From the NCBI GenBank assembly GCA_031259745.1, contig JAIRLB010000017.1, positions 1 to 8,759 of the forward strand: a stretch of DNA of 8,759 bases, written 5' to 3'. A program made the position numbers and the translations under genes. The first letter of the stretch is position 1. Every line of letters begins with the position of its first letter. Source of the stretch: Rickettsiales bacterium. GTDB lineage: Bacteria > Pseudomonadota > Alphaproteobacteria > Rs-D84. This document shows positions 54-8,759 of the stretch, in pieces. The notes beneath the pieces were generated by a model, which saw only the letters and a list, made by a program, of their open reading frames with translations, was not told the DNA's origin and did not search any database.

Positions 54-172
54 CCTTAAAAACTCTTTTGTTTTTATAAAAAGGCCGCAATTGTACGGAT
101 TCAACGCGGTGTTTCACACGCTGTTTGTTTATGAGCTTTGTTAAGGCCCCGAACCCAAATCCCTTTGGATTC
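54..172 (-). ncRNA. candidate structured RNA (RNA-1), unknown family
   Basis: Read on the minus strand, the element opens with a 9-bp hairpin (172-164 pairing with 159-151) capped by GGGA, a GNRA tetraloop. A conserved GGGGCCUU follows. A long-range helix (133-146 with 54-65, about 12 bp with two single-base bulges) closes the element. Inside it lies a small hairpin, GCG-u-GUG-AAA-CAC-CGC (121-106). The 5' hairpin begins 6 nt after a TATAAT box in a good sigma70-type promoter. Positions 96-175 align without gaps to 1469-1548 of RNA-2, and the differences in the hairpin are compensatory. I see no clear terminator on the left, so the 3' end is uncertain. It could be a small RNA, or the leader of a gene lying left of the window. 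No known RNA family was recognised. Confidence 0.5.
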
Positions 173-178
173 GCATTT

Positions 179-207
179 ATTATACTTAAACTTGCACAAA
201 TTTGCAA
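179..207 (-). promoter_or_regulatory. sigma70-type promoter for RNA-1
   Basis: On the minus strand: -35 TTGCAA (207-202), a 17-nt spacer, and -10 TATAAT (184-179). The predicted start falls at or near G172, the first base of the RNA-1 hairpin. The -35 lies inside the spacer of the opposing tsaE promoter, so polymerase should not be able to occupy both at once. Confidence 0.6.
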
Positions 208-219
208 ATGGTTTATAAT
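192..219 (+). promoter_or_regulatory. sigma70-type promoter for tsaE (leaderless)
   Basis: -35 TTGCAC (192-197), a 16-nt spacer, and -10 TATAAT (214-219). Only 7 nt separate the -10 from the ATG at 227, so transcription should start at or beside the A of the start codon. The mRNA would then have no 5' leader. There is no Shine-Dalgarno sequence before the ATG, which agrees with this. Confidence 0.6.
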
Positions 220-226
220 TCTTGGC

Positions 227-667
227 ATGGAAAAGATTCTAAACAGCATTGATGAGACAAGGGCCTTTGCGCACGGATTTGCAAAAACTCTGCGCGTGCC
301 GCAAACCGTGGCGTTGCACGGGGATTTGGGTGTTGGGAAATCCGAAATCGCCCGCACGGTGATTCAGACATTGTGCGGCGAGGACACGGTCGTCCCAAGC
401 CCGACTTTTACACTGGTGCAGTCTTATGAATTAAGAAATCAGAAATCAGAATCAAAGGTAGTGAAGCAAATCAGAAATATTTCTCACTTTGACTTATATC
501 GCGTCCAAGATGTTTCCGAACTAGAAGAGATCGGCTTAGCGCATGCCATGGAAAATGACATCACATTAATTGAATGGCCAGAAATCGTCGGGGCCAAATT
601 ACCGTCAAATACGATTCATATTTACATAACAGAACACAAAAACGGCCGCAAAATCGCAATAGAATAA
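227..667 (+). CDS. tsaE: tRNA threonylcarbamoyladenosine biosynthesis ATPase TsaE
   Basis: TsaE is the cytosolic P-loop ATPase that works with TsaB and TsaD to make the t6A37 modification on ANN-decoding tRNAs. The 146-aa product has the family marks in order: Walker A GDLGVGKSE near residue 32, PSPTFTLVQSYE (switch region), HFDLYRVQDVSELEEIGL, and TLIEWPEIVGAKLP (Walker B-like). The start at 227 is preferred over an upstream in-frame ATG at 125. The extra N-terminal residues would overlap RNA-1 and both promoters, and TsaE normally begins just before the helix leading to Walker A. Between SYE and HFDLYR there are about 10 more residues than in E. coli TsaE, encoded partly by a GAAATCA heptamer repeat (435-454). 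The neighbour on the right is convergent. Confidence 0.93.
   Translation: MEKILNSIDETRAFAHGFAKTLRVPQTVALHGDLGVGKSEIARTVIQTLCGEDTVVPSPTFTLVQSYELRNQKSESKVVKQIRNISHFDLYRVQDVSELEEIGLAHAMENDITLIEWPEIVGAKLPSNTIHIYITEHKNGRKIAIE
435..454 (+). repeat. heptamer tandem repeat (GAAATCA) inside tsaE
   Basis: Two exact GAAATCA units (435-441, 442-448) are followed by a third with one base missing (GAATCA, 449-454). A related AAATCAG-like stretch recurs at 468-478. The array encodes a hydrophilic insertion between two conserved TsaE motifs, so it appears to be a tolerated expansion within a surface loop. Confidence 0.5.
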
Positions 668-719
668 AAATATAAGTGCATAATTCCCTTCACTTGCGAA
701 ATGATAAATAATTTCTTAT

Positions 720-1283
720 TTACAAATCAGAATTCGGAACGTATGCGCAATCTTCTGTGAAATTATAATTTCCGGTGTCGTCACTGAAAGTGTATAAATT
801 GCTCATATTGCAGCTGGTTTCAGATGTATTGTTTCCCGGTGCACTTGATCCGCATCTGAGTATGCCGCCACTATCGGTCAAACATGGGCATTTTTTACAT
901 CCTTCTGAATCATTTGCCGGATTTCCATAATATCCGTTATCGCATATGTAATAAGTATTGCCGCCATATCCCACGCAAGAACAATTAGCTTCATACTCGC
1001 AGATTTTTGCAGTTTTGCATGTCAAGATATTATTTGAATTAGCTGTCTCCTCGCAGCTGTCAGTTGCGGAACTGCATGTAACAGTGGAACATGAGCCGAC
1101 GCAAGAGGAGAGACAATCTCCGCATTTTGATTTGCAAGAAAATAAATTACAGCCATTATTTGATAATATGCATCCATCTTCAAAAAATGCTGCGCAGTTG
1201 CAATTACAATCTATTGAATCTGCGTGGCAGACAGAGTGAATAATACATACAAATATTGTTATAAAAGTTAGAATTTTGTTCAT
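720..1283 (-). CDS. secreted cysteine-rich protein, unknown function
   Basis: A 187-aa protein with a signal peptide (residues 1 to about 21: positive start, hydrophobic core, likely cleavage after CHA). The mature part has about 165 residues and 23 cysteines. Spacings include CNCNC near the mature N-terminus, many C-x2-4-C pairs, and a later CDNGYYGNPANDSEGCKKCPC module that resembles EGF-like or GCC2-type disulfide modules. The C-terminal half is rich in Ser, Thr, Asn and Gly. An exported, disulfide-bonded surface or secreted protein is the best reading. A metal-binding role is possible but the His content is low. A strong AAGGGGGTG Shine-Dalgarno site (1291-1299) precedes the start. The structured RNA-2 region lies directly upstream, so RNA-2 may be its leader. 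I recall similar CxxGYYG...GCxxCP proteins in gut Alphaproteobacteria, but this was not checked. Confidence 0.75.
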   Translation of the reverse strand: MNKILTFITIFVCIIHSVCHADSIDCNCNCAAFFEDGCILSNNGCNLFSCKSKCGDCLSSCVGSCSTVTCSSATDSCEETANSNNILTCKTAKICEYEANCSCVGYGGNTYYICDNGYYGNPANDSEGCKKCPCLTDSGGILRCGSSAPGNNTSETSCNMSNLYTFSDDTGNYNFTEDCAYVPNSDL

Positions 1284-1306
1284 CGTTCATCACCCCCTTT
1301 GAGTTC

Positions 1307-1333
1307 AAGGAAAACCGCCGGAATAATGGCGGT
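1307..1333 (-). terminator. intrinsic-terminator-like hairpin, or attenuator, at the end of RNA-2
   Basis: On the minus strand ACCGCC (1333-1328) pairs with GGCGGT (1319-1314) around an 8-nt loop and is followed by UUUUCCUU. This polarity fits a rho-independent terminator for minus-strand transcription only. It sits about 30 nt before the start codon of the cysteine-rich gene and just upstream of its Shine-Dalgarno site. It could therefore end an independent RNA or act as an attenuator. The U tract is short and interrupted. Confidence 0.5.
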
Positions 1334-1545
1334 CGGGGAGTTTAGAACAATCATGTTAAGAAATGACCCCGCCAGCTTTCAGGTTTCCCCTTTTGTATAA
1401 CTAGCGGCTCCCCAACCTTGTGGGTGGGGATGCATAATAAAAGAAGCGCATCCGCGCCAATTATTATGCGGATTCAGCACGCAAATCATCGTGCCGTCTT
1501 AACATGGGCTGTTCTAAGGCCCCAAACCCATATCCCTATGGATTC
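1308..1545 (-). ncRNA. candidate structured RNA (RNA-2), unknown family, possible 5' leader
   Basis: This fills the 346-nt stretch between the rpe end and the cysteine-rich gene. Read on the minus strand it has these helices. A 5' hairpin (1545-1524) has 9 bp and a GGGA tetraloop. A closing stem of about 22 bp is built from GGGG/CCCC (1523-1520 with 1338-1335), 8 bp (1517-1510 with 1349-1342) and 10 bp (1506-1497 with 1361-1352). Inside are hairpins GCACG/CGTGC (1494-1477), a 9-bp stem with an inner GCGC/GCGC helix (1469-1432), CCCCACC/GGTTGGGG (1429-1410) and CCGCTAG/CTGGCGG (1407-1369). The last contains a G-U pair that would be an A-C mismatch on the plus strand. A terminator-like hairpin ends it. 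It is not tmRNA, RNase P, SRP RNA or a riboswitch that I recognise. Confidence 0.55.
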
Positions 1546-1552
1546 GCAAATA

Positions 1553-1581
1553 AAAGTACTAAAAAATTTATGAAAAAGCAA
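1553..1581 (-). promoter_or_regulatory. probable sigma70-type promoter for RNA-2
   Basis: On the minus strand: -35 TTGCTT (1581-1576), a 17-nt spacer, and -10 TACTTT (1558-1553), with 7 nt to the first base of the RNA-2 hairpin (1545). The -10 is weaker than that of RNA-1, but the placement relative to the conserved hairpin matches RNA-1 to within one base, which supports both. Confidence 0.45.
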
Positions 1582-1612: not shown

Positions 1613-1640
1613 GAATCGTAAATCATAAGTCAAAAATCGC
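1613..1640 (+). repeat. degenerate heptamer array across the rpe stop codon
   Basis: Four consecutive 7-bp units read GAATCGT, AAATCAT, AAGTCAA, AAATCGC. The array covers the stop codon (1630-1632) and the last codons of the ftsA-rpe ORF. The unit resembles the GAAATCA heptamer in tsaE. Confidence 0.4.
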
Positions 1641-3420
1641 ATTGTTCCCAGCGCAGCAGGGACCGCACGGCCAATGGAAAATCTGCGCTGCGCGCCAGAT
1701 AAGAACCGCTGACCAGATAATCCGCGCCCGCCCGCCAGCAAGCCTGCGCTGTATCCGGATTAATTCCGCCGTCAACGGATATCTTGAATTTCAGTCCGTA
1801 TTTCTTGCGCGTATTCGCCAAGACGGAAATCTTATGAATGGCGCCGTCTTCGAATTCTTGTCCCCCGGCGCCGGGCTTTACCGACATTATCAGAACGTCA
1901 TCAATCTCTTTTATAACCGGTTTCAGAATATCGACCGAGCTATCAGGATTCAACGCGATTCCGCTGCGCTTGCCCATATCCCTTATCTTTCGCAAAGCCG
2001 CGCGGACCCCGGCTGTATTGGTCGACACAATAATTGTATCCGCGCCCGCATTCGCTGTGGCCGCGGCCCAAACAGCCGGACTTTCCGTCATCAGGTGAAC
2101 ATGCAGGTGGGCGGCCGTGTGTTCACGTATGAATTTTAACTCGTCCATTCCGCCGGCAATTCTGTCCACAAAGAAACCGTCCATAACATCGACGTGAATC
2201 ATTGAAATATTGCCGGATTTGAATAAATCGTAAGTTGCCGGCGATTTCATATTGAATGCCAGCGTGCTTGGTAATATAGGGGTAAATTTTGCCGTCTTCT
2301 TTTTCCTGCGCTTAAAAGCAGACGCGATTCCGGAAACAATAGTCTTCCATTTTTCGCGCTTGTCCAGGTACGCCTTGACACGCGGCGCCTGCTGATTCCA
2401 GATATATTCGGACAATGCGTTTACGGCGGCGTCCGCCCCCAGGTTTTTGACGGGGATGTTGAACGTGTTTTCCAATAATTCCCCGATACCGGAAATGCCG
2501 CTGCCGCCGCCGGACAGGAATATATGTGACGGGTTGTATTTCGCCAGCGAACCGTCCAGCGATTCCTTGGCAGCCGCGATAATGTTCAGCAATATCGGCA
2601 GCAGTATATCATTCACATCCGCGCGTGAAAAATCATATGACGCGTCCGCCGGAGTAAATCTATCCATTTCATTTGCCGAAACAGATGCGGCAGCATGTTT
2701 GATTCGCTGGGCGTCAACCGGGCCGATATTTAATTTGTCGCTGATCGCGCTGGTAATGAACGACTGTCCCATTTTTATCTTGTCAAAAAATACGGGGCCG
2801 CGGCCCGTCCAAATGGAAAGACTGGTGAATTCCGCGCCCAAGTCTATAAACAAAGCCGTTTGTTTTTTGTTGCGAAACACGGCGTCCAGCAAGAACGACG
2901 GGTCTTTCGTGCAGTCGGCTTGGATATGAGCGCGGCGCAGAAACGCCAATATCTCATTCAGTCTTTCCTTTTCATGGAAAATGACCCCGAATACTGAAAT
3001 CATCTGGCGGTCGATATATCCGACAGGCGTCAGCAGGTTGCGAGCGCAAATCGTGTCATATCGCAGCGGAACAACATGCATTGGATAAAAGCCTTTGCTT
3101 GGTTTTATCTGTGCAATTTGATGCTGGATATCGGCGGATGTGATTTTATGCTCGCCCGACCACAGAGTGCTTTTGGCGGTCATTTCAAATTCCGATTTTC
3201 CAAAATTTCCGGTAATATAGGCGGAATCAAAACGGGATCCTATTTGCTTTTCCAGTTCATCGACCACGGATTTTATCGCAAAGATGGTGTCCATACTTTC
3301 CACGCTGTGCATGGCTGATTTGGTAATACGCCCGGAACGCACGCGATGAGCCACGGCGCGCACGACGGCGCTTCCGATGTCAAGGCACAGAAAAGACGAG
3401 TCGAACAAATTCATGACCAT
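1630..3420 (-). CDS. ftsA-rpe: FtsA-Rpe fusion: cell-division actin homologue fused to ribulose-phosphate 3-epimerase
   Basis: One 596-aa ORF holds two full domains. Residues about 1-350 are FtsA, the actin-like protein that anchors FtsZ to the membrane. It has a phosphate-1 motif LDIGSAVVRAV (13-23), the FtsA-specific 1C subdomain (about 80-160), IDLGAEFTSL (192-201) and an adenosine loop LSGGGSGISG (302-311). A basic amphipathic stretch, KWKTIVSGIASAFKRRKKK (357-375), matches the usual C-terminal membrane-targeting helix. Residues about 379-585 are Rpe, the D-ribulose-5-P/D-xylulose-5-P epimerase, with PST, HVDVMDG (H409, D411), HVHLM (H442), SVKPGAGG and VDGGI (D550). The metal and acid-base residues are all present. 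SVKPGAGG replaces the usual SVNPGFGG. The start at 3420 has GAGG 6 nt upstream; ATGs at 3432 and 3414 are alternatives. ftsQ lies 35 nt upstream. ftsZ does not follow. Confidence 0.92.
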   Translation of the reverse strand: MVMNLFDSSFLCLDIGSAVVRAVAHRVRSGRITKSAMHSVESMDTIFAIKSVVDELEKQIGSRFDSAYITGNFGKSEFEMTAKSTLWSGEHKITSADIQHQIAQIKPSKGFYPMHVVPLRYDTICARNLLTPVGYIDRQMISVFGVIFHEKERLNEILAFLRRAHIQADCTKDPSFLLDAVFRNKKQTALFIDLGAEFTSLSIWTGRGPVFFDKIKMGQSFITSAISDKLNIGPVDAQRIKHAAASVSANEMDRFTPADASYDFSRADVNDILLPILLNIIAAAKESLDGSLAKYNPSHIFLSGGGSGISGIGELLENTFNIPVKNLGADAAVNALSEYIWNQQAPRVKAYLDKREKWKTIVSGIASAFKRRKKKTAKFTPILPSTLAFNMKSPATYDLFKSGNISMIHVDVMDGFFVDRIAGGMDELKFIREHTAAHLHVHLMTESPAVWAAATANAGADTIIVSTNTAGVRAALRKIRDMGKRSGIALNPDSSVDILKPVIKEIDDVLIMSVKPGAGGQEFEDGAIHKISVLANTRKKYGLKFKISVDGGINPDTAQACWRAGADYLVSGSYLARSADFPLAVRSLLRWEQCDF

Positions 3421-3455
3421 TACCACCCTCATCCGTCAAGCGAGGTGCTTTCTTG

Positions 3456-4650: not shown

Positions 4651-4974
4651 ATGTCGAACAGTGTGGATAATTTTATAAGGCTTGCCAACTTTTATAATCA
4701 GATGACGACAATAATGTCGGCAATCTGCGTTCAAAAGGGCGGCATTGCCATAGAAAACTATGTTGGGCGTTTTTTTGCCGCGGACATATTGGAATTCATC
4801 GCAGGCTATGCCGCCAGGATAGAGCGCGAAAAAATGCCTGTCAGTCCGGATGTCGCCACCGCGATCGCGAGGTTCGGGCAGGAATTTGAAAAGGTGAAAA
4901 ATTTGACCACGCCGACACAGAAGCCTATTCATGAAATGACTTTGGAAGAATTTGAAAAGGTCATGAATATTTAA
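4651..4974 (+). CDS. hypothetical 107-aa protein
   Basis: Not recognised. The product looks cytosolic, with no signal peptide or membrane helix. It is predicted mostly helical, with a charged middle segment (YAARIEREKMPV) and an acidic C-terminus ending in LEEFEKVMNI. It is taken as real because it has its own promoter and Shine-Dalgarno sequences. It is also the first gene of a tightly packed co-directional group, with the secretin-like lipoprotein next, 81 nt downstream. Base composition matches its neighbours. No role can be assigned from sequence alone. Confidence 0.65.
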   Translation: MSNSVDNFIRLANFYNQMTTIMSAICVQKGGIAIENYVGRFFAADILEFIAGYAARIEREKMPVSPDVATAIARFGQEFEKVKNLTTPTQKPIHEMTLEEFEKVMNI

Positions 4975-4976
4975 GT

Positions 4977-5104
4977 CAATGAACAATTGGCAATGAACAG
5001 TGAACAAAATGTTCGATGGGATATTGGAATTGTTCCAAAAAGTTTAGGTGAAAACATGAAACTATTAAAATCAATGTTTATTATTCATTGTTCATTGTTC
5101 ATTG
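4977..5104 (+). repeat. inverted heptamer repeats flanking the secretin start
   Basis: Upstream, heptamers CAATGAA, CAATTGG, CAATGAA, CAGTGAA run from 4977 to 5004. Downstream, the reverse-complement unit TTCATTG is repeated exactly three times (5084-5104) and encodes the core of the signal peptide. Positions 4991-5006 can pair with 5089-5104 over 16 bp in RNA, with one G-U pair. The loop encloses the Shine-Dalgarno site (5046-5050) and the start codon (5056). Confidence 0.6.
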
Positions 5105-6384
5105 CCTGTGGCTGCCAATTCCAACAACGCCTGGATTTACAGGAATATGATACGGTCCAGGTCGTCAATAATCTGGTCATTGACGAAAATTCCGTCCCTA
5201 TCTTTCCGAAAAAAGCCGCGCTGACGACCGATACTGTGCGCCGATTTTCCATTGATCTGCCGAAACGTTGCAGGGTGGATTGGAACAATCAGAACGTATT
5301 GTCCGTAATACCCGAGGAAAAGGTTGAAATTGTGCGCCTGGACGTGGGCGATCCGTTGCCGTCGTTTAATGTCTCAGATTATGAATTTACAAAGCTGACA
5401 GTCAAAGAAACCTTGGAAAAGCTGCTGGATGGCGCCGATATAGAGGTTGTCGAAGATGAGGACCTGTCGGAAAAGGTTACTGGATCCATTCAATCCGGCT
5501 CGCTGACCGACACCGTTGAGCTAATTGCCAAAATGGGCCGCGCCTATTATTCGTACGATGACGACTCCAAGGAAATTCACTTGGCGCACCGCGCGAAATG
5601 GCTTATGAAGATGCCCCGGGATGAAAACATAATTATGGCGCTGCTGGATGCGATGCACGGCGCCGATATGCGCAATCTGCTGGTCGACTGGGAAGACAAG
5701 ACGGTTACTTTTGAAGGAAATTATCAGACAGAGCGCGAAGTTGCGCGGATTGTATCCGATGTCGGCTCCAAGAAATATATGATCGCGTGGGATATAGACG
5801 TGTACCGCGTCTATCCGCGCACGGACAATCCAATTATCTGGATGAACATATTGCCGGCTTTCGGCGATAAGAATGTAAAAATGTCAATTCCGGGAGTCGT
5901 AGGACGTGCACTGGTTGCAAGTCCTGAGATAAATACCAAGACATTGCAGGAATTCCTGTCACAACAGGGAAATGTTGTTTTGATTTCTCAGGGCACCTTT
6001 GTTATTCCGAATGGATGGCAGTCCAGATTCGACATAGGTCAGTGCGGCAAAGAGGAAAGGCTGGAAACCGATCTGACCATCGGCGCGACTGGAAAATACG
6101 GCGATTATGCCGGACGCAAGAAAATTGATTCCAAGATTGTCCTGCGCACTAATGCCGGCGAGCTGACATCGTTTAAAATCCCGAGCAGCCCCGGCGACAA
6201 TTATGTCATCATAGGCATTCCAACTCATTCGTTTGTGACCGAACCAGAAACGCTGATCAATCCATTTGCGGAACTGGTCGTATTCATGTCCCCGCGCGTT
6301 ATTTCAATTGTGGACGCCGGAACTCCTGCTTCGGAGATGACGCCACTGTATGGCGACGTGCTACGCGAGTATTTGGAGGAGTAA
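5056..6384 (+). CDS. secretin-like outer-membrane lipoprotein (type II/IV pilus secretin family)
   Basis: A 442-aa protein with a lipoprotein signal peptide (MKLLKSMFII..., lipidation at C18 or C20). Residues about 100-175 resemble the N0/STN domain (FTKLTVKETLEKLLDGADIEV; DTVELIAKMGRAYYSYD). A short N1-like segment follows (about 195-240). Residues about 245-420 resemble a secretin barrel: GNVVLISQGTFVIPNG, an internal DSKIVLRTNAG strand and the C-terminal AELVVFMSPRVISI, close to the secretin consensus ending in ITPRVI. At 442 aa it is shorter than PilQ and nearer to lipoprotein secretins such as BfpB or PilN. It would form an outer-membrane pore for pilus or protein export. The start at 5056 has AGGTG 5 nt upstream. 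The nitroreductase gene starts 1 nt after its stop. The assignment rests on motif resemblance only. Confidence 0.6.
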   Translation: MKLLKSMFIIHCSLFIACGCQFQQRLDLQEYDTVQVVNNLVIDENSVPIFPKKAALTTDTVRRFSIDLPKRCRVDWNNQNVLSVIPEEKVEIVRLDVGDPLPSFNVSDYEFTKLTVKETLEKLLDGADIEVVEDEDLSEKVTGSIQSGSLTDTVELIAKMGRAYYSYDDDSKEIHLAHRAKWLMKMPRDENIIMALLDAMHGADMRNLLVDWEDKTVTFEGNYQTEREVARIVSDVGSKKYMIAWDIDVYRVYPRTDNPIIWMNILPAFGDKNVKMSIPGVVGRALVASPEINTKTLQEFLSQQGNVVLISQGTFVIPNGWQSRFDIGQCGKEERLETDLTIGATGKYGDYAGRKKIDSKIVLRTNAGELTSFKIPSSPGDNYVIIGIPTHSFVTEPETLINPFAELVVFMSPRVISIVDAGTPASEMTPLYGDVLREYLEE

Positions 6385-6913: not shown

Positions 6914-8170
6914 ATGTTCACAAAACTTGAAAGAAAAGTCGCGTTCCGCTATTTGCGCGCGAAACGCAAAGAAGGATTCGTATCTGTTATCTCTTGGGTG
7001 TCTTTGTTGGGAATTATGCTGGGCGTTGCGACGCTGATTGTTGTGATGTCCGTTATGGGCGGATTTCACGACACTTTGCTGTCGCGCATTATCGGAATGA
7101 ATGGGCATGTCGTTGTTTATCACCAGGATGGCGCTGTTCAGGATTATGATTTCCTAATTGACAAAATGAGACAGAACAAAGTTGTTGCGGCACATGCTGC
7201 CGATATTGTTCCCATCGCAGAAGGACAGGTGATGGTGTCCGCCAATGGGAACAACTCGGGCGCGATGGTGCGCGGCATTCGAATGTCCGATTTGCAGGCC
7301 AAGACCGCCACAGGGACGAAAATCTACGGCAGGAATCTGGATTCGATCAAAGACGGCGAGCTGGTCATTGGGAATTCCTTATCTCGTTCTTTGCACGTAA
7401 CGATGGGTGACAAAGTTTCGCTGGTGTCCGCTAACGGCGGAACGCCGACCGCATTTGGCACGATGCCGCGAATTATGTCTTATCCTGTCATGTCTTCGTT
7501 CTTTATGGGCATGTACGAGTATGATTCCGGGTATGTGTTCATGCCTCTGACCACCGCCCAGAAATACTTGAACATAGGCGACAGCGTCACGCATATCGAC
7601 TTGTTCCTGCGGGACCCCGAAAAGACGGTGACTGTCCGCGAATCGTTGTCCGCTTTGCTGCCGTCCGGATTTATTGTTCGCGACTGGCGTGATTTGAACC
7701 GCGGATTTGTTGGTGCGCTGCAAGTAGAATCAAACGTGATGTTTCTGATTCTGATGCTTATCGTTATCGTCGCGGCGTTCAATATCGTGTCGTCCTTAGT
7801 CATGCTAGTCAAAGACAAATACAAAGACATCGCCGTCTTGCGCACATTCGGGGTTCCGCGCCGCTCTATGATGAAGATATTCGTTTTGTCCGGCACCAGC
7901 ATCGGTGTCATCGGCGCCGCGTTCGGAACGGCGCTGGGCGTGCTTATTGCCACATATATAGAGCCGATAAGAAAGTTCTTCCAATGGGCTACCGGCCGGG
8001 ATTTATTTCCAGCGGAATTGTATTATTTATCGGAACTGCCGTCAAAATTGATATTTGCAGAGGTTGTCGGAATCGCGCTGGTCGCGGTTGCGCTGGCTTT
8101 CTTGGCGACATTGTATCCGGCATGGAAGGCGGCAAATACGGATCCGGTGGAGGTATTGAGAAATGAATAA
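6914..8170 (+). CDS. lolC: lipoprotein-releasing ABC transporter permease (LolC/LolE family)
   Basis: A 418-aa inner-membrane permease of the LolCDE complex, which extracts lipoproteins from the inner membrane and hands them to LolA. It has the FtsX/MacB layout: a cytoplasmic start (ERKVAFRYLRAKRKEG), TM1 (about 25-50, ending VVMSVMGGF), a periplasmic domain of about 220 residues, then three helices (about 275-300, 325-350, 380-405). A coupling segment (DIAVLRTFGVPRRSMMKIF) follows TM2, and the protein ends in YPAWKAANTDPVEVLRNE. AGGAAA 5-9 nt upstream supports the start. The ATPase gene lolD, often next, is absent here. The last 8 bases overlap the next gene. LolC and LolE cannot be separated with certainty. 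Many Alphaproteobacteria have a single form. Confidence 0.9.
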   Translation: MFTKLERKVAFRYLRAKRKEGFVSVISWVSLLGIMLGVATLIVVMSVMGGFHDTLLSRIIGMNGHVVVYHQDGAVQDYDFLIDKMRQNKVVAAHAADIVPIAEGQVMVSANGNNSGAMVRGIRMSDLQAKTATGTKIYGRNLDSIKDGELVIGNSLSRSLHVTMGDKVSLVSANGGTPTAFGTMPRIMSYPVMSSFFMGMYEYDSGYVFMPLTTAQKYLNIGDSVTHIDLFLRDPEKTVTVRESLSALLPSGFIVRDWRDLNRGFVGALQVESNVMFLILMLIVIVAAFNIVSSLVMLVKDKYKDIAVLRTFGVPRRSMMKIFVLSGTSIGVIGAAFGTALGVLIATYIEPIRKFFQWATGRDLFPAELYYLSELPSKLIFAEVVGIALVAVALAFLATLYPAWKAANTDPVEVLRNE

Positions 8171-8380: not shown

Positions 8381-8759
8381 TGAAATAATTCATCATCGCC
8401 GTTCGGTTCGACTGCATGAATACGATTATTCAATTTCCGGATATTGTTTCATAACAATATGCACCATGACAAGAAATGCATTTTTGGCAAAATCAAAAAT
8501 GGCGAAATGATTTTGAATAAATTCGGCCGGATAGTTTGCGAATGTTGGAATGATATCCCAAAGCATTTTCCAAACACAAAATTACACGAATAGGTCATAA
8601 TGCCGAATCACATGCATGGAATTATTGAGATTATAAATTCGGGGGCAATCCACGATTTTGTGGGTGCAAATAATTATTTGCACCCACAAAATCAAGAAGT
8701 ATTGGATCAATAGTAAAAGGTTTTAAAATAGGAACAACCAAACAAATCGGCAAATCAAT
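8373..8759 (+). pseudogene. decayed IS200-like (Y1, REP-associated type) transposase, truncated by the window end
   Basis: Three frames together rebuild a Y1/HUH single-strand transposase. Frame 1 starts at 8373 with an N-terminus carrying RRSVRLHEYDYSISGYCFIT, then shifts in a T run at 8481-8485 (five T where six would keep frame). Frame 2 gives FGKIKNGEMILNKFGRIV, then LHE, a TAG stop (8591) where homologues have Tyr, and VIMPNHMHGII with the catalytic HMH (HUH) motif. After a palindrome, frame 3 gives SRSIGSIVKGFKIGTTKQIG. The ATG overlaps the DUF1653 end (ATGAATGA). Such enzymes cut and join single-stranded hairpins. With two frameshifts and a stop this copy should be dead. Confidence 0.8.
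8654..8693. repeat. perfect 40-bp palindrome
   Basis: The 20-bp half 8654-8673 is followed by its exact reverse complement (8674-8693) with no spacer. The left half encodes the VGANN run expected in the transposase, and the right half is its inverted copy. The reading frame of the transposase changes across it. It has no U tract or GC-rich foot as a terminator would. Confidence 0.9.

Follow-up and report, generated by a model that had tools for sequence, protein, structure and literature searches.

The window, an 8,759-nucleotide stretch of a Rickettsiales bacterium genome, carries two related RNA elements on its minus strand among a set of protein-coding genes. Domain scans of eight window proteins identify TsaE, an FtsA-like protein plus an epimerase, FtsQ, a nitroreductase and a MacB/FtsX-type permease, and find no phage domain among the eight. 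The FtsA-like region (195–329) and the ribulose-phosphate 3-epimerase region (404–579) form an unusual fusion within a single 600-aa open reading frame at 1630–3432 (minus strand). Inverted repeats also occur: a perfect 20-nt repeat without spacer at 8654–8693 (GATTTTGTGGGTGCAAATAA and its complement), and nested repeats AATGAACA/TGTTCATT around a gene start at 4974–5107.

The two elements came to attention through blocks 143–175 and 1516–1548, which differ at 3 of 33 positions in the sequence and belong to repeat families D1 and D2. A/T at 158/165 becomes T/A at 1531/1538, the compensatory swap that the original prediction described, and G at 151 becomes A at 1524, turning G-C into G-U on the minus strand and giving a mismatch on the plus strand. 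The hairpin has the GGGA loop as claimed, though its stem is 10 bp rather than 9. Each hairpin was also thought to follow a sigma70-type −10 box. This describes copy 1 well (TATAAT, 179–184) and copy 2 poorly, for which the hexamer is a weak TAGTAC (1556–1561, minus strand); a best −10 match of at least 5/6 is nonetheless common nearby, found in 29 of 38 copies (window copy 2 included) versus 5 of 36 control stretches. Shuffled sequences fold less well than the minus strand, which has z = −2.6 for 40–190 (1 of 200 shuffles equally good) and z = −6.8 for 1290–1552 (0 of 200). A DNA-level or plus-strand reading was rejected because both the pairing changes and the downstream genes match the minus strand. 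The two blocks are parts of one conserved structured RNA, and the observation is confirmed. The hairpin is, however, the smallest part of that RNA, which is complete only at copy 2; the two elements belong to one RNA family, as proposed, but are not equivalent, copy 1 having no 3′ domain.

Copy 2 spans about 240 nt, from 1547 to about 1309. Fold and alignment place the 10-bp GGGA hairpin at 1522–1547. Next come GGGGCC, a long strand, several hairpins and the core stem-loop. A strand complementary to the long one follows, then ACUCCCCGACC, and last a terminator-like hairpin that carries a U run. The GGGG at 1520–1523 constitutes the 5′ strand of helix P1, whose CCCC partner lies within 1331–1341 (fold, covariation). 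The long stem P2 pairs a seqA-like 5′ strand at 1497–1519, assigned by covariation, with a 3′ strand at 1342–1361, the predicted antisense segment; the pairing energy within the copy is −28.8 kcal/mol. Between them lie the middle hairpin CCCC..GGUUGGGGAG at 1408–1432 (fold, alignment), whose G strand doubles as the 5′ strand of an alternative helix resembling that of sRNA-Xcc1, and the core stem-loop at 1362–1408, recognised by conservation, with an internal loop of GUUAUACAA and GAAA, and with GGGGUCAUU. The segment ACUCCCCGACC at 1331–1341 has three possible partners, namely the 5′ GGGG of P1, the middle G strand and the SD of the downstream gene. Like the P2 3′ strand, it is defined by alignment, covariation and pairing energies. 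The intrinsic-terminator-like hairpin CCGCC..GGCGGUUUU occupies 1309–1332, as judged from the sequence and its conserved pairs. About 25 nt beyond it begins the predicted target gene (1283–720, minus strand); its SD (GGGGG) and start codon lie at 1281–1300, where the antisense segment pairs from the SD as far as the start codon. The 187-aa product has no Pfam match; it has a signal-peptide-like N-terminus and 25 Cys residues and is predicted to be exported.

Copy 1 comprises the 5′ half only (82–174, minus strand, by sequence and fold, with the 3′ limit set by eye). Within 54–178 it has the hairpin (149–174) and a seqA-like 5′ strand and then diverges from the family; no family core, antisense strand or terminator is seen by eye. 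It is also absent among the nine listed of the 14 matches to the 3′-domain model in the window's genome.

Both the P2/P1 pairing and the alternative pairing covary. The counts derive from alignments A2 and A1, which took 15 and 28 of the 38 elements; these aligned more readily than the rest, a selection that favours clean pairing counts. Across the 15 full-length copies, window included, the 51 pairs are 97.1% formed, falling to 39–52% when the partners are slid. Changes on both sides occur at 23 of the 51 pairs (shuffled mean 11.4, 0 of 500 as high), and P2, with 18 pairs, holds 14 of the 23. The covariation score is 0.356, versus 0.163 for shuffled alignments and at most 0.097 for slid controls. 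The pairs of the terminator hairpin are conserved. Among 19 paralogues the 5′ and 3′ strands of P2 pair at −19.3 kcal/mol with their own partner and −9.5 kcal/mol across copies, the own partner being best in 17. The antisense strand, made up of the 3′ strand of P2 and ACUCCCC, is complementary to sequence in the 5′ half of its own leader, and its C-rich end also pairs, in a mutually exclusive manner, with the middle G strand. This second helix, formed by middle GUCGGGGAG and 3′ CUCCCCGAC, excludes P1 and shares a few bases with the terminator. It is paired in 96.3% of cells and scores 0.196 (shuffled 0.109, slid at most 0.085); two of its pairs that are not part of P1 have changed on both sides.

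Folding of the same 15 copies yields different structures for the whole RNA and for its 3′ part. In all 15 copies the minimum free energy fold of the full-length RNA contains P1 and P2, and in 12 it has at least five terminator pairs; in the remaining three, which have a CCCACCCG strand, the terminator scored 0 by the coordinates used. Folded alone, the 3′ fragment adopts the Xcc1 helix (7–10 pairs) in 15 of 15 copies and keeps only three terminator pairs in nine copies, three of which are those scored 0 at full length. In the full-length RNA, the alternative helix costs 11–21 kcal/mol.

The RNA is widespread in the window's family. A 28-nt hairpin pattern (up to two mismatches) matches 64 of 183 family genomes, in 9 of 13 genera, and its backward control matches 0 of 183, so the pattern occurs far beyond chance. 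The covariance-model search, run with a model of the 3′ domain built from 28 sequences (R1), bears out the expectation of a structured minus-strand RNA with covarying homologues, many more of which lie on that strand: homologues are present in 165 of 173 family genomes at E ≤ 0.001 (113 of the 115 good ones, 13 of 13 genera) and in 28 genomes outside the family. When more candidates were scored, single family genomes gave 14 (G000, the window's genome), 57 (G001), 32 (G004, a single contig), 49 (G030), 45 (G147) and 16 (G163) matches, that is, up to 57 in a genome of about 1.1 Mb. Five genomes outside the family have 8, 6, 6, 8 and 0 matches, the last being G275. Of 385 genomes drawn from the class, 32 have an R1 match, four of these being family members; the weakest match in this draw is partial (E = 5e-4). 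The exact pattern is also found in 11 record stretches from metagenome genomes titled Rickettsiales, Alphaproteobacteria, Proteobacteria or Pseudomonadota bacterium, two of which originate from yak and sheep colon.

For closer comparison, loci were fetched for 32 of the 57 matches in G001, 20 of 32 in G004 and 8 of 14 in G000, the window being one further G000 locus. Relative to the start of the hairpin, similarity between copies extends from about −50 to +237, that is, from promoter to terminator, and reaches 95% identity; near-identical copies have differing genes behind them. In the genus mate G001, one element (L017) lies divergently beside a gene that by eye resembles the window's permease gene at 6914. 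The window has no element at that gene, unlike G001, and positions therefore vary within the genus.

Of the 60 loci fetched (G004, G001, G000), 56 have a gene that begins 120–250 nt past the start of the model. By a crude measure, 45 of 56 linked genes encode a hydrophobic N-terminus, compared with 31 of 70 background open reading frames picked by script, some of them still element-linked (p = 5e-5). The 57 downstream proteins, window included, fall into 30 sequence clusters: five clusters hold 32 proteins (12, 8, 6, 4 and 2), the window's protein belonging to the largest, and 25 are singletons. At least 5% Cys is found in 32 of the 57. Pfam matches include outer-membrane barrels, an autotransporter, Chlam_PMP, glycosyltransferases, LicD, trypsin and one N6 methylase, and at least 31 of the 57 have no Pfam match. 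The 22 proteins from outside the family include glycosyltransferases, a surface antigen, a pilin, and EcoRI-type and other methylases, with lipoprotein-like starts noted by eye. No common Pfam family unites the genes behind the RNA.

The window's own antisense strand, AUUGUUC..ACUCCCC, pairs with GGGGGU GAU GAACGAU, from the SD up to the start codon, at −18.5 kcal/mol. Complementarity between the corresponding strand and the RBS of the following gene is clear in phages (see below) and modest in the window's family, where the antisense feature is partly kept. Over 63 family loci, the mean energy is −10.78 for a locus's own RBS and −9.44 for those of other loci (p = 1e-4, the floor), with same-strand controls at −8.66 (shuffled) and −8.95 (reversed). 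The own target has a mean rank of 24.1 of 63 and is in the top five in eight loci. In 32 loci the strand has an end other than CUCCCC; among these, the own SD is in the top five in six (L268, L304, L307, L311, L313 and L317) and ranks near the bottom in L315, L316 and L060. GGGG is present in the SD of 22 of 56 linked genes versus 7 of 71 other script-picked ones; outside the family it shows no enrichment (2 of 19 linked genes). Taken alone, G001 gives p = 0.001 (n = 28), and the match is not significant in G004 (p = 0.11), in the outside-family set (p = 0.14), in G275, which is of the RF02221 type (p = 0.20, n = 9), or in G233 (p = 0.16, n = 3). A broader 50-nt segment has no clear effect in 37 family loci (−15.5 versus −14.9). 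Initial p values of 0.007 (G001), 0.0002 (G004) and 0.02 (outside set) were discarded because the segments included terminator arms.

The closest Rfam family is that of sRNA-Xcc1 (RF02221), which matches copy 2 at 1323–1417 (minus strand) with 40.5 bits. The best match in the window's genome scores 52.3 bits, and neither reaches the gathering score of 53. A search of the window for the RF02221 core pattern with up to three mismatches finds none. The architecture of RF02221, in which helix P1 encloses a core stem-loop carrying AUACAA and GAA(A), is present, as judged from the alignment and helix counts. The only other Rfam match in the window is a chance-level miRNA; neither C4 (RF01695) nor IsrK (RF01394) matches it at E up to 1. 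By Rfam scores, then, the window RNA is a member of none of RF02221, RF01695 and RF01394, and we consider it probably homologous to RF02221. Three loci from the class that score above the RF02221 cut-off (L118–L120) by eye have the same longer layout, as in 5′ CUUAGAAACCU with 3′ AGGUUUCUAG. RF02221 has no match in 14 control genomes and 13 matches in G275, a single 1.4-Mb genome, in which R1 finds nothing; more generally, the Rfam model and the family-built model recognise each other's members weakly. In G275, six of 12 further loci (L341–L352) are followed by a small protein of 87–113 aa with the motif HY(D/N)IKxxFxxLL, and two by a similar one.

The RF02221 core pattern occurs in at least 120 viral-contig stretches. 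We parsed 80 of these, with 82 cores (73 distinct); two contigs, L196 and L167, have two cores in tandem. R1 was run on 50 of the 80 loci (with L260) and the Rfam models on 12, all 12 of which exceed the RF02221 cut-off, with no C4 match at E ≤ 0.01. At E ≤ 1, R1 yields 30 matches, 26 of them on the core, in 24 of the 50 loci, and four off the core; only nine core matches persist at E ≤ 0.01. The Pfam analysis covered 66 of 72 downstream proteins and found, in rows that may overlap, AntA in 14, KilA-N in 13, Bro-N in 10, pRha in 8, ORF6N in 7, P22_AR_N in 5 and P22_AR_C in 19. Pairing was evaluated in 56 non-redundant loci with a recognisable RBS. The 3′ strand is antisense to its own RBS, at −19.9 kcal/mol compared with −13.2 for others (p = 2e-4, the permutation floor), and to the upstream part of its own leader (−28.6 versus −21.2 kcal/mol). 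Of the full-length phage RNAs, 58 of 82 adopt the latter pairing. In viral contigs, the RF02221 core forms the 3′ half of a leader of this type, which mostly precedes antirepressor-type genes. RF02221 thus appears to be the 3′ portion of a leader in which one antisense strand is opposed to two partners, a mimic upstream and the RBS.

These phage copies were reached by pattern and covariance searches only; blastn against named phages, with the window RNA or a copy from an Azospirillum plasmid as query, gave no match, nor did query L124 against plasmids. Azospirillum plasmids carry three RNA copies, one before hypothetical genes and a Gam-family gene and another before Bro-N and toprim genes, both near HTH regulators, and the third in an unannotated stretch. 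A passage of PMC12189769 reports that RF02221, C4 and isrK matches adjoin one another in Xylella fastidiosa De Donno.

Several characterised RNAs share parts of this design. C4 RNA of phages P1 and P7 is released by cleavage from an antirepressor-gene leader and acts as an antisense RNA, pairing with the RBS of the same gene; the same layout is seen in the phage RF02221 loci, and the window-family RNA differs in its extra terminator and 5′ hairpin. IsrK of the Salmonella prophage Gifsy-1 is described, in a section of PMC4825925, as a promoter, structured RNA, terminator and read-through mRNA with alternative structures; some transcripts pass the terminator to give an inactive mRNA, and the short RNA works in trans. 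The equivalent series here, of promoter, RNA, intrinsic terminator, RBS, gene and alternative folds, is seen by sequence and prediction only. An antirepressor gene follows IsrK, as in the phage relatives of the window RNA, whereas host genes follow the window-family RNA. The account of P4 CI RNA in the same source has it pairing upstream and downstream of itself and causing termination. The window-family RNA is predicted to share its seqA/seqC arrangement, one antisense segment with partners on both sides and premature termination; termination in P4 stops replication genes, while the window-family leader itself holds the intrinsic-type terminator. On the basis of layout, the window RNA is predicted to work like C4, IsrK and P4 CI. 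With sRNA-Xcc1 it has in common the type of core, the P1-like helix and the position before a gene, but Rfam models only the 87-nt 3′ part, as an sRNA; the window-family RNA adds the 5′ half with the P2 5′ strand and the terminator-like hairpin with its U run.

We therefore favour, with somewhat more confidence than doubt, the interpretation that the complete copy is a self-antisense leader of the C4/IsrK/P4 CI kind, derived from phage and amplified before host genes, for which switching is predicted. In this model, the RNA likely switches the downstream gene by pairing with itself and with the RBS of that gene. The leader would be co-transcribed with the gene behind the terminator-like hairpin. 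By default, P1, P2 and the terminator would form, and the 5′ half would sequester the antisense strand, leaving the gene off and producing a short RNA. Removal of the 5′ half by cleavage, or its engagement by another RNA, would release the antisense strand. The 3′ part could then refold to the sRNA-Xcc1 shape and open the terminator stem, and/or the released strand might block the RBS on the read-through mRNA. Phage antirepressor leaders would be the source, multiplied as a promoter-leader unit before host genes, which would mostly encode exported or surface proteins.

Base pairing alone does not require the conserved unpaired core, which could serve as a binding site for a ligand or protein. 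An unlikely alternative is a riboswitch or protein-binding attenuator, in which a metabolite or protein bound by the core (UAUACAACA/GAAA, GGGGUCAUU) decides between terminator and antiterminator, the RBS match being incidental. The terminator-like hairpin, the two mutually exclusive covarying helices and the high conservation of the unpaired core are all compatible with such a device, as is an RBS match that lacks significance in several subsets. The genes behind the RNA, however, share no Pfam family, phage RNA of the same kind is RBS-antisense, and the long stem varies freely by compensation (−19.3 versus −9.5 in the 19 paralogues), like antisense pairs.

The title of a 2011 paper reportedly presents sRNA-Xcc1 as a trans-acting sRNA. 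Applied to the window, this would make the RNA an independent regulator and the gene behind it a bystander, which we regard as improbable. The terminator-like hairpin would suit an independent transcript, and part of PMC2996969 documents a stable 88-nt sRNA in Xanthomonas with mapped ends. Yet 56 of 60 loci have a gene that begins a short, constant distance away; in the window's family the SD of this gene is biased towards a match; and Xanthomonas cassettes also place the RNA upstream of symE according to PMC12444791. That paper also places sRNA-Xcc1 in integron cassettes; no R-box motif, as an attC-like or integron reading would suggest, is seen by eye. Least probable of all is a selfish mobile promoter cassette or repeat whose RNA structure serves integron- or transposon-like spreading rather than regulation. 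In its favour are the sharp similarity unit with differing flanks, the abundance of copies (14 to 57 matches in each of six family genomes) and the location of some copies near contig ends; against it are the constant orientation and distance to the gene and the SD bias.

Within the literature searched, whose scope did not extend to most subscription papers or to the spelling anti-repressor, sRNA-Xcc1 and antirepressor were not found together, and only two papers mention RF02221; within that literature, the leaders before host genes are new, as is the description of RF02221 at full length. The self-antisense leader interpretation would recast sRNA-Xcc1 as the antisense half of a wide class of phage leaders, and would show that a phage-type regulator has been adopted as a common leader in reduced genomes. 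The paralogues have private stems, and orthogonal RNA control within one cell is therefore testable. More tentatively, and with the balance of judgement against it, a phage immunity RNA may have been domesticated in dozens of copies within one bacterial genome, each with its private stem, as a self-antisense switchboard for a surface-protein repertoire. If so, sRNA-Xcc1 would be one half of this leader class, and these bacteria would possess an RNA-based counterpart of antigen switching.
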